Part shown: positions 991-4,352 of the stretch, in pieces | Layout of the letters: each line of letters starts with the position of its first letter | How positions within the stretch are numbered: position 1 is the first letter of the stretch | Virus record (IMG/VR): IMGVR_UViG_3300035670_000335 | Location: 1 to 48,506 of that record | Strand: one strand, 5' to 3' | DNA: 48,506 nt | DNA from: a virus | The notes under the pieces: model-generated | The model's database searches: none | What the model was told of the DNA's origin: nothing | What the model saw: the letters and a program-made list of their open reading frames with translations, nothing else | Translations under genes and position numbers: made by a program

Positions 991-1017
991 AGGGGGACTA
1001 CGGTCCCCCTCTTTTTT
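991..1017 (+). terminator. Rho-independent terminator with a UACG tetraloop
   Basis: AGGGGGAC (991-998), loop TACG, GTCCCCCT (1003-1010), then CTTTTTT. The perfect 8-bp GC-rich stem is closed by C(UACG)G, the stable UNCG tetraloop type favoured by T4 terminators, and is followed by a U-tract on the plus strand. No plus-strand gene lies directly upstream except gp32 beyond the minus-strand ORF, so it may be the ancestral gp32 terminator displaced by the insertion. Its T-tract overlaps the stop codon of the convergent gene ending at 1016. Confidence 0.88.
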
Positions 1018-3370
1018 ATGCCAAATATTTTTCGAATTCTGTGTTTCTTGCCAAATTAGTTCTTGAATTTCTTTCTTGTATGCTTATTCGACTGTCATGA
1101 CTATTAATCTGTTCTTGCACTCGAGTTATTTGCCCATTCATTGCCGCAGAAACTTGCAATGCTGCCTGAGAAGTTATTTGCGCATCTTGAATTTCAACTT
1201 TTTCTTCGGCTGCTGTTGTAGACACAGTTATGTCGCTTCTAGGTGGTTCTGACACTGTTGCATTTGGAGTGGTTGAAATTGGGGGCACTTGTGGAGTTGG
1301 TGCTGGCATGACAGAAACATTGATCCCTTGAGATCTTAAAGACAACCTTCGTTCTCTTTCATATTTAAGTGCAAGAGCTGCTTCTCTTTTTGATATACTT
1401 GCCTTATCCTTTGCATAATAACTCTTCATTTGATCATATTCAGTCGAAACTGAAGCCCATTCTTGAGCTAATGCCAATAAAGCTGCCTCAAGGTTATCTG
1501 AGGTTCCATTTAAATAATCTCGTATTGCTGGTCTTTTATCGCCAATCAAATAGTTCGCGAAAATATACTCTTGTAATTGTGGAGTAAACTTTTCGTTGCC
1601 AGTAAGACCGAGTTTTTCTTTTGCCTCTTTCAATGTTGTTGGAATTAATTGATATTTGCCAACAGCAAAAAATTGTCCTCTAGATTGAGCGCCAATAATA
1701 TCATTTACAGTGAGCTTTTCCAAATCTGCTCTACCTGCTTTAAAGGTATTGCCAACTTTTTGATTATATGCCGTATATCCACCAAATGCCCGACTTTCTC
1801 CACGTTCAAGTAAAGAAGAAAGAATAGGTGTTGATGGTGAAACAGGTGGTCTTGTTACTTGTTGTTCGCCCATACTACCTGCAACACCAGCCACTCTACG
1901 TGATTCATTGATTGATGCAACCATTCCAGTTTCTGTGGAAGTTGCAGCAGTTCCTCCTCCGTGAATCAATTCAAAAACTGTTTCTGCCAAGCCTTGCAAG
2001 TCATCCTCGAAATATATTGAAGCCAAATATCCTGTTAATCCACCGCCTAGTGCCCCCAGCAATGTTCCTACAATTGGAGTTGCAAATGTTCCTGCAGCTC
2101 CACCCAGTATAGTTCCAAATCCAGTCAATCCAACGGTTGAGATTAAATCTGAATACTCACCAACCATTTGCGCTTTGAACTGCTGATCTGAAATTTTTCC
2201 CATTGATTTATCTGAAACATAACCAGACATTTGAGCGAGAGTAATTGCCACATCAGCAGCTGCAATTGGTGCAAATATTTTTGCACCGCCTTTAAATGCT
2301 TTCATTATAGGTTTGAATCTATTAATCTGCTCTGGCATTTTTTTGACTTTTTGCCCAGCTAATCGTTGCGCTTCTCGATATTCATATCCCTGTGATCGAA
2401 ATTCTTTTGTGTATTGATTTATTAATTGCATTCTCCCTTCTGTGGGGGTTGCCATTTTCCTTTTTCTTATTCTTTCTCGTATTTTAGACGCAGCATATAT
2501 TCCACCAGAAGTGACTGTGGCAGCTGAAATGCCTAAAACTCCAGCGTCAAATACTTTAGAAATTTCTTCAGTTGTTGGTAAACCGAGCATTTGCAAGAAT
2601 TTATCTTCTGGTGTCATCTCGAATCCAGGTTCACCCTGAAATCTTCCCATTGTTCTCTCAAAACTTTTCGTTAGATTAAACAAGGCTGCTGCTTGTGCTG
2701 CAAATGATCCAACACTTACTGCTGCAGCAGCCCCGCCAGCCATTAACGCAAGAATTCTTGGATTTCTCAATAAGAATGGTAGCGCGTTATCCAAAAAACT
2801 TTTTTGATCTTTCGCTTCTTCTTGTTTCGTTTTTTTCTTTGCGGTTGTACCACGGATTCTTTCGCGCTGTTTTTTATTTTGTTTTTTTAGAACTTCCAAT
2901 TCTTTAGCAATTAAATCTAATTTACCTTTCACTGTTTTGGAAGGCATTTGAACGCGAACAGCAGTCATGAGAAAGCGAGGATCAATTCTTCGCTGCGTTC
3001 TCCCAGAACCCAACTCAGAGTAAAGATTAGATATTAATTGAGAATTTCTTTCTGCAATTGTAGTGAGCAATCCTATTCTTCGATTGAGCGTGGCGATAGA
3101 TGAAGTTGTGAAACGTTTGAAGTCATTATCAGCCTTTTCCTTTTCTTCTTGCTGTTTATCTTGCTTTCTCTGGAGTGGTGTGCGTTTTCCAAATGCAGTT
3201 TGTGCTACAGTTGCTATAAATTCAGATTTGGTAATGATCCTCGCCAGATTATAGACTGAGAAACGCATTGCCAAATCTTCACGAACGATCATTGAAAATG
3301 CTGTTTTTAATGGAACGTTTTTTCTAGCCTGTATAGTGTACAGCTCAGCAGCAATGGTTGAAATTGACAT
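1016..3370 (-). CDS. Tape-measure-like baseplate/tail protein with C-terminal muramidase-like domain
   Basis: 784 residues. The N-terminal half is helical and basic, with likely coiled coils near residues 60-95 and 150-195. Two Gly/Ala-rich hydrophobic stretches follow (about 203-230 and 412-450), typical of tape measure proteins that insert into membranes. Residues about 515-670 resemble lambda-R-like muramidases/transglycosylases: RGES with candidate catalytic Glu525, then AVGKYQLIPTTLKEAKEKLG from about 569, and an ALAQEWASVS segment. The C-terminus is Ala/Gln/Thr-rich. It follows the gp26-like frameshift pair, the position of the tape measure in lambda-type tail operons and near gp29 in T4 (590 residues). 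Its start overlaps the previous stop (TAATG). It would set tube length and probably open the peptidoglycan. Assignment to gp29 rests on position and architecture, not on clear sequence similarity. Confidence 0.68.
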   Translation of the reverse strand: MSISTIAAELYTIQARKNVPLKTAFSMIVREDLAMRFSVYNLARIITKSEFIATVAQTAFGKRTPLQRKQDKQQEEKEKADNDFKRFTTSSIATLNRRIGLLTTIAERNSQLISNLYSELGSGRTQRRIDPRFLMTAVRVQMPSKTVKGKLDLIAKELEVLKKQNKKQRERIRGTTAKKKTKQEEAKDQKSFLDNALPFLLRNPRILALMAGGAAAAVSVGSFAAQAAALFNLTKSFERTMGRFQGEPGFEMTPEDKFLQMLGLPTTEEISKVFDAGVLGISAATVTSGGIYAASKIRERIRKRKMATPTEGRMQLINQYTKEFRSQGYEYREAQRLAGQKVKKMPEQINRFKPIMKAFKGGAKIFAPIAAADVAITLAQMSGYVSDKSMGKISDQQFKAQMVGEYSDLISTVGLTGFGTILGGAAGTFATPIVGTLLGALGGGLTGYLASIYFEDDLQGLAETVFELIHGGGTAATSTETGMVASINESRRVAGVAGSMGEQQVTRPPVSPSTPILSSLLERGESRAFGGYTAYNQKVGNTFKAGRADLEKLTVNDIIGAQSRGQFFAVGKYQLIPTTLKEAKEKLGLTGNEKFTPQLQEYIFANYLIGDKRPAIRDYLNGTSDNLEAALLALAQEWASVSTEYDQMKSYYAKDKASISKREAALALKYERERRLSLRSQGINVSVMPAPTPQVPPISTTPNATVSEPPRSDITVSTTAAEEKVEIQDAQITSQAALQVSAAMNGQITRVQEQINSHDSRISIQERNSRTNLARNTEFEKYLA

Positions 3371-3579
3371 TATCGTCTCTTACTCTTTTTAAATAGGCTT
3401 TGTAAATCGTTTTTCTGTTGATCTGATTGTTGCTTTAATCTCTCAGCTTCCTCTTTTGCCCAAGTATTCACCATTCCGATATACATGTCACGCTCCCATG
3501 GAATCATATGTTCTAATTCTGTGAGAGTATATTTGTATTGATGAGTCAATGTAAACATGTTGCTGTAGTAATTTTTCAA
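3370..3579 (-). CDS. Short ORF read as the -1 frameshift extension of the gp26-like tail assembly protein
   Basis: 69 residues if translation began at the TTG at 3579, with a poor initiation context. The visible motif is YTLTELEHMIPWERDMYIGM followed by VNTWAKEEAERLKQQ and a basic end; the WERD...EE.ER.K pattern is the sort seen in tail-assembly T-domain extensions. The reading frame is open further upstream to the slippery T-run in the preceding gene and lies in its -1 frame. I therefore think it is translated mainly as a fusion: 250 residues of the gp26-like protein plus 77 more, 327 in total. The stop codon overlaps the start of the tape-measure-like gene. Independent translation from TTG or from the internal ATG in NYYSNM cannot be excluded. 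Confidence 0.7.
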   Translation of the reverse strand: MKNYYSNMFTLTHQYKYTLTELEHMIPWERDMYIGMVNTWAKEEAERLKQQSDQQKNDLQSLFKKSKRR

Positions 3580-3596
3580 ATTCGCATTACGAAAAC

Positions 3597-4352
3597 TTAG
3601 GTAAAAAAATCGGTGAGTCCCTCCATATGCAACTTGTGCTCAAATCCGCATTTTTGACAAGTCGTTTCAACATCGTGTTCCATTTTAGGAAGATTCTCAA
3701 AAAATGATGTAATTCGATCAAATTGTTCTTGTGTCAAAGACTCTAGGAATTGATAGAATTCTTCCTTTGGCGTTTCATGTGCATAATACATTCCGTCATT
3801 ATCAAAAATGTATTCTGTGCACTCATAGATCATATCAAAAACTTTAGTATTGGTGTCAGTTGCCACCATATCTTCAATTGGTTTAAATGATTTCAAAGTT
3901 GGAAATTTCAGCACAATTCCTATTTTGTTTGTGATATAAATTTTTGGTGAAATGTCAGATACTGGTGGTTTGATATCAAGAACATTAAATGTTACAGGCA
4001 TCATATTTTTACATTCAACTTCTACTTCAATACCTTCATCGTTCTTTTCAGAACCAACTACATTTCTGCATATGAAGTAAGTTTCAATTTGTTCCCCAAC
4101 AGATCTGGCTCTCAAATTCAAAAACAAATACTCGATATCGAAAATTGGCAACTTATCGATATCAATTTCATCAACTAAACAATTATTAATAATTTGCTTG
4201 ATGGTTTTATAAATTGTATCTTCTTCTTCACTTTGAAGTGCCATTAGAAGAAGTTTTTCTTCTTTTACAAGAAATGGTCGAAACTTGATTGGTGTTGGAT
4301 TTGATACTAATTTCAATTCAAAAATAGGCAAATCAATTTTAGGTAAAGGCAT
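3597..4352 (-). CDS. gp26: gp26-like baseplate hub / tail assembly chaperone protein (T4_baseplate family)
   Basis: 251 residues. The opening PLPKIDLPIFELKLVSN..IKFRPFLVKEEKLLLMALQS and the later LVDEIDIDKLPIFDIEYLFL match the pattern of T4 gp26 (family T4_baseplate), where an EEK/REQK motif and DIDKL..D.EYLF are conserved. Cysteines at about 90, 106 and in CQKC near residue 236 may form a zinc-binding site. T4 gp26 is a baseplate hub component or assembly factor. The ORF ends in GAT TTT TTT ACC TAA, and the next ORF lies in the -1 frame, which suggests a lambda G/GT-like chaperone pair ahead of a tape measure. It sits 14 nt after the gp54-like gene in one minus-strand operon. Confidence 0.75.
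   Translation of the reverse strand: MPLPKIDLPIFELKLVSNPTPIKFRPFLVKEEKLLLMALQSEEEDTIYKTIKQIINNCLVDEIDIDKLPIFDIEYLFLNLRARSVGEQIETYFICRNVVGSEKNDEGIEVEVECKNMMPVTFNVLDIKPPVSDISPKIYITNKIGIVLKFPTLKSFKPIEDMVATDTNTKVFDMIYECTEYIFDNDGMYYAHETPKEEFYQFLESLTQEQFDRITSFFENLPKMEHDVETTCQKCGFEHKLHMEGLTDFFT
3603..3624 (-). promoter_or_regulatory. Programmed -1 ribosomal frameshift signal
   Basis: Read on the minus strand: GGAGGGA (3624-3618), 8 nt, then TTTTTTT (3609-3603). In the zero frame the run is GA T_TTT_TTT ACC TAA, a correctly phased X_XXY_YYZ heptamer three bases before the stop codon. An internal Shine-Dalgarno-like sequence about 10 nt upstream is the arrangement that stimulates -1 shifting in E. 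coli dnaX. After slipping, translation continues YLSFRNANLKNYYSNM into the downstream ORF without a stop. Only a weak TTCG/CGAA hairpin is visible downstream. Confidence 0.75.

Follow-up and report, generated by a model that had tools for sequence, protein, structure and literature searches.

A poly-T slippery site at the end of a gp26-like gene and a very probable −1 frameshift into a gp51-like domain in T4-like phages

Results

Organization of the locus

The window, i.e., the whole stretch of DNA analysed here, is a virus record of 48,506 bases. On its minus strand it carries, in this order, a gp26-like ORF, a gp51-like reading frame in the −1 register and a 784-aa ORF that is tape-measure-like by position only (Table 1). 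The protein encoded in the 0 frame matched PF12322 T4_baseplate (E = 4e-58, 197 bits against a curated cut-off of 24.5), phrog_150 “baseplate hub” (E = 2.7e-64) and, by profile, T4 gp26 (hhalign probability 99.4), and the −1 ORF matched the gp51 family phrog_634, “baseplate hub assembly catalyst” (E = 2.8e-17). Other T4-type baseplate genes (phrog_232, 430, 219, and 438) were present in the window together with homologues of DNA end protector and head closure, and a sequence search of the PDB, directed toward solved proteins of the short tail assembly chaperone type (TAC-N), gave no match.

Table 1 Features of the gp26/gp51-like locus in the window
Feature	Position	Strand	Basis and remarks
gp26-like ORF, 0 frame, putative short tail assembly chaperone (TAC-N)	3597..4352	minus	251 aa; PF12322, phrog_150, T4 gp26 profile
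Internal Shine-Dalgarno-like GGAGGGA, presumed upstream stimulator	3618..3624	minus	Sequence; anti-SD duplex energy
Slippery heptamer T_TTT_TTT, in phase with gp26	3603..3609	minus	Sequence; conserved in relatives
0-frame stop TAA, one codon past the slip site	3597..3599	minus	Sequence
−1 frame, gp51-like C-terminal domain (putative TAC-C)	3370..3603	minus	77 codons after the slip plus TAA; phrog_634; register; T4 gp51 C-terminus
Predicted gp26-gp51 fusion (TAC-NC)	3370..4352	minus	250 + 77 = 327 aa; from slip position and frames
Next ORF, tape-measure-like by position	1016..3370	minus	784 aa; ATG

The gp26-like ORF ends with ATG GAG GGA CTC ACC GAT TTT TTT ACC TAA, so that, as a preliminary description of this DNA had claimed, a correctly phased T_TTT_TTT heptamer is preceded by an internal GGAGGGA at a distance of exactly 8 nt, in a dnaX-type arrangement. 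The open −1 frame spans 3639 to 3370, and the last base of its TAA doubles as the first base of the 784-aa ORF’s ATG (TAATG, 3370-3372); the 77 open codons and the overlap with the start of the next gene had likewise been read correctly. Runs of seven T residues are scarce across the window (7 observed against 44 expected from dinucleotide shuffles, both strands), as if slippery homopolymers were avoided elsewhere.

Conservation of the slippery site

Related loci were collected in a first-round set of 82 (79 IMG/VR contigs, two cyanophages, and the window) and a full set of 198, from which 93 representatives less than 85% identical were taken. An in-phase T_TTT_TTN was present in all 82 first-round loci, the last base being C in 53, T in 27, and A in two, and in 174 of the 198 loci after further groups had been added. 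The codon preceding the heptamer ended in T in 82/82 loci despite encoding Ser, Asp, Asn, Ala, Gly, or Arg. As descriptive figures that ignore relatedness, a preceding codon ending in T and TTT as the first Phe codon were each found in 93/93 representatives, against 64% and 72%, respectively, from codon usage. A single codon separates the slip site from the 0-frame stop in 66 of 82 loci; in one locus (L059, near 3711), the slip site lies eight codons ahead of this stop, which gives the 0-frame gp26 a longer tail. The conservation of the site is far beyond chance: among 486 other ORFs of the same loci, used as a control, such a site occurred near the end in four, and in none did the −1 frame then stay open for a further 40 codons. 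The alignment of relatives proposed in the preliminary description as a check of T run, phase, and startless −1 ORF thus turned out in its favour, the −1 start being unconserved as well (see below).

The phages bearing the site include P-SSM2, S-ShM2, S-CAM1, Aeromonas phage phiAS5, a KVP40-like Vibrio phage, phages of Desulfovibrio, Stenotrophomonas, and Xanthomonas, Pootjesviridae, and C48C1. The canonical site was missing from Ackermannviridae, Vibrio phage D495, a T4-type Karamvirus, and locus L182, and its universality in gp26 is ruled out by the first three of these. In Ackermannviridae and D495 (L092, L093, L097, L183-L200, L094), the −1 frame continues without a stop into a short C-terminal domain, and the sites are of the degenerate form N_NTT_TTC (G_ATT_TTC, A_ATT_TTC, G_GTT_TTC, and A_CTT_TTC) with poor P-site re-pairing; they resemble the signal of T7 gene 10. 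The T4-type Karamvirus has no such site, and its gp26 and gp51 are separate, divergent genes. In L182, which is close to Stenotrophomonas phage YB07, the frame differs at the slip site (near 2240-2260) and gp26 runs into the third frame; this is probably a homopolymer sequencing error, or possibly a real variant.

Upstream Shine-Dalgarno-like element and downstream structure

The position of the internal Shine-Dalgarno (SD) element is conserved in relatives: the distance from the end of GAGGG, GAAGG, or GGAGG to the slip site is exactly 9 nt in 67 of 82 loci. The energy of the anti-SD duplex peaks for 9-mers ending 7–9 nt ahead of the slip (mean −7.1 kcal/mol; −9.8 kcal/mol in the window) and is weak elsewhere.

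Downstream of the site, an excess of RNA structure was found at offsets +6 to +12 (mean z −1.6 to −1.8, with 40–49% of sequences below −2), and synonymous resampling with the protein preserved gave a mean z of −1.94 against −0.64 and −0.35 further downstream. About half of the representatives fold a hairpin just past the site, most often with a 5-nt spacer among those that fold strongly. The register of the hairpin is clade-specific, and a single hairpin conserved in all relatives was rejected, since RNAalifold gave no consensus on the ungapped alignment. Covariation in the P-SSM2-like clade was modest, with one pair showing a T-A/G-C change but also A-C mismatches. For the window itself, a downstream hairpin was not significant (z +1.2), while its nearest relatives fold strongly (L001, z −4.0; L002, z −3.2). 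Since the window has no significant hairpin, its frameshift efficiency could be lower or could depend on the SD element alone.

Start codons and coding in the −1 frame

In the window, no start candidate is met in the −1 frame before a TTG at codon 8 after the slip, and an ATG does not follow until codon 15, which already belongs to the conserved domain, in agreement with the earlier remark that the downstream ORF has just a poor TTG of its own. Among the 93 representatives, the first candidate start lies anywhere from codon 1 to codon 32; 48 have no ATG, GTG, or TTG within the first five −1 codons, and one locus (L071) has no start in 30 codons. The conserved −1 residues (His at codon 5 in 74%, Leu at codon 8 in 96%, then NFALMQHHKYSL) sit at or ahead of the first start in many loci, the conserved register is ungapped from the slip site onward in relatives, and the variability of the −1 frame is greatest at third codon positions. 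This pattern fits a fusion and not a separately initiated protein.

The principal alternative is that gp51 is made as a separate protein from a weak codon of its own (TTG in the window, ATG or GTG in others) through reinitiation once ribosomes have terminated at the gp26 stop, without any fusion. The 0-frame stop does lie near the −1 ORF, an ATG is found inside the first five −1 codons in 40/93 relatives, and database records annotate gp51 as a gene in its own right; in the relatives with an early ATG, some separate synthesis of gp51 may take place. As a general explanation, we regard it as highly improbable. Neither the position nor the codon of the start is conserved, and in many loci the first start falls within or past conserved residues, whereas the heptamer, its phase, and the preceding T, none of which reinitiation needs, are absolutely conserved in these groups. 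Moreover, no representative (0/93) has a −1-frame start codon within reach of the internal SD element, only the T run lying at start-codon distance from GAGGG, so this element does not serve gp51 initiation. T4, finally, appears to have the fused form as a single gene (see below). The pattern named in the preliminary description as contrary to a fusion, i.e., a well-conserved separate start and no slippery run, was absent from all groups except T4’s own branch.

Slippage of RNA polymerase on the T run, which would give mixed mRNAs encoding the fusion, is still less probable. The run reaches T7 in the window and T8–T9 in a few relatives (L008 and L031), and a one-base insertion would yield the same fusion protein. 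A run of T6 is short for polymerase slippage, and 67/93 representatives have only T6 followed by C, yet retain the exact ribosomal phase; the SD-like stimulator with its fixed spacing and the downstream hairpins, furthermore, act on ribosomes. A broken gene or a sequencing indel, for which one could cite the error-proneness of homopolymers and the frame difference at the site in L182, is refuted by conservation and has a negligible probability, since 174 loci, among them finished genomes of isolated phages, are arranged alike.

Relation to T4 genes 26 and 51

Residues 7–185 of T4 gp51 matched the profile of gp26 (hhalign probability 93, E = 2.9e-7) and residues 206–242 matched that of the −1 ORF (E = 1.2e-4, with a probability of only 55), while T4 gp26, used as the negative control, did not match the −1 ORF profile (probability 0.1). 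Since T4 gp51 matches both profiles and T4 gp26 lacks the −1 part, gene 26 of T4 appears to encode TAC-N, and gene 51 the long form, TAC-NC; the two genes lie in opposite orientations. The abstract of the 2022 study by Vladimirov and co-workers is said to describe frameshifting as conserved in several T4-like groups and T4 as using genes 26 and 51. T4 gp51 is described as required for assembly but missing from the finished particle; gp26 is given as a chaperone of hub assembly, although some studies place it in the hub itself (PMC3004832).

Discussion

Taken from sequence comparison, the data make it very probable that the locus uses a programmed −1 ribosomal frameshift to produce two proteins, TAC-N (gp26) and TAC-NC (gp26-gp51); the G/GT-like fusion, the dnaX-type placement of the internal SD element, and the gene order suggested in the preliminary description are supported by the comparative evidence. 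Most ribosomes would terminate at the TAA right after the slip site and release gp26 of 251 aa. In a minority, pairing of the internal GGAGGGA to 16S rRNA, assisted in many relatives by the hairpin just downstream, would hold the ribosome back, whereupon the P- and A-site tRNA-Phe would slip back by one base on T_TTT_TTT and the ribosome would read on in the −1 frame to give the 327-aa TAC-NC. By analogy with lambda gpG/gpGT, both forms may coat or chaperone the tape measure protein presumably encoded directly downstream.

The locus shares with lambda G/GT the order of chaperone, C-terminal extension, and tape measure, and the position of the −1 shift, close to where the first gene ends; the heptamer is T_TTT_TT(T/C) here against G_GGA_AAG in lambda. 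Xu, Hendrix, and Duda reportedly found in 2004 that a −1 frameshift of the G/GT type is conserved in the tail genes of dsDNA phages. In E. coli dnaX, an internal SD about 10 nt upstream of the homopolymeric heptamer A_AAA_AAG is combined with a downstream hairpin, and the shift yields the shorter product. The upstream SD at about this distance from a homopolymeric heptamer is common to dnaX and the present loci, as is, in many relatives, the downstream hairpin; the window differs in its T heptamer, in its longer shifted product, and in having no clear hairpin.

The preliminary description was not aware of any such frameshift for T4-type gp26, and in this respect it has to be corrected: frameshifted chaperones in T4-like phages had already been proposed in 2022, and the window adds another predicted case. 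The proposal of tail assembly chaperones in T4-like phages is credited to Vladimirov, Gautam, and Davidson (2022, Virology 566:9-15) by PMC10885494 and PMC12846349. Citing this work, the PRFect paper (PMC10885494) states that, in some T4-like phages, frameshifting is replaced by two genes, one short and the other longer and fused, and PMC12846349 states that the TAC-N genes of T4-like phages have poly-T slippery sequences. The chaperones so described resemble those of the window in belonging to T4-like phages, in having a short and a long form, and in the poly-T slippery sequence, and T4 itself differs from the window in that its long form is the separate gene 51. The accessible text on T4-like chaperones contains no mention of the internal SD or the hairpin, which may be reported elsewhere. 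A −1 frameshift in the TAC genes of Vandenendeviridae and Andersonviridae (phage Adele) has the conserved poly-T signal GTTTTT (PMC12846349); like the window, the Adele-type genes have a −1 frame open to a TAC-C domain ahead of the tape measure gene, but both the phage families and the signal are different.

In marine and other T4-like phages, a probable frameshift is a widespread and strictly conserved way to the long chaperone. In T4, by contrast, gene 51 corresponds to the whole long form, so that a shift of frame and a dedicated full-length gene present themselves as two different means of making the same two-form chaperone. None of the annotated records inspected joins the two frames as one gene, so the fused protein is missing from those records. 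The site also constitutes a ready-made, testable poly-T frameshift signal.

The −1 stop and the next ATG overlap by one base (TAATG or TGATG type) in 21/93 representatives; most of the others have a short overlap of another type or a short gap. Because this stop overlaps or abuts the ATG, part of the translation of the tape-measure gene may be due to shifted ribosomes. Tentatively, and as a rather speculative generalization, T4-like phages other than those of the T4 and Ackermannviridae branches might have in common a two-part stimulator, consisting of an anti-SD-pairing GAGGG at a fixed 9-nt spacing and a fast-evolving hairpin of clade-variable register, together with a frequent short overlap of −1 stop and tape-measure start that would couple translation of the tape measure to shifted ribosomes.

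The tape-measure-like nature that the preliminary description assigned to the next gene holds only in part: searches of PHROGs and Pfam with ORF 1016-3370 gave no tape-measure match, but its position agrees with this role and the corresponding downstream ORF of Pelagibacter phage HTVC008M is annotated as “putative tail tape measure.” Directly downstream of this gene, a small ORF on the minus strand (403-858) matches homing endonuclease families (phrog_314, E = 1.3e-12).
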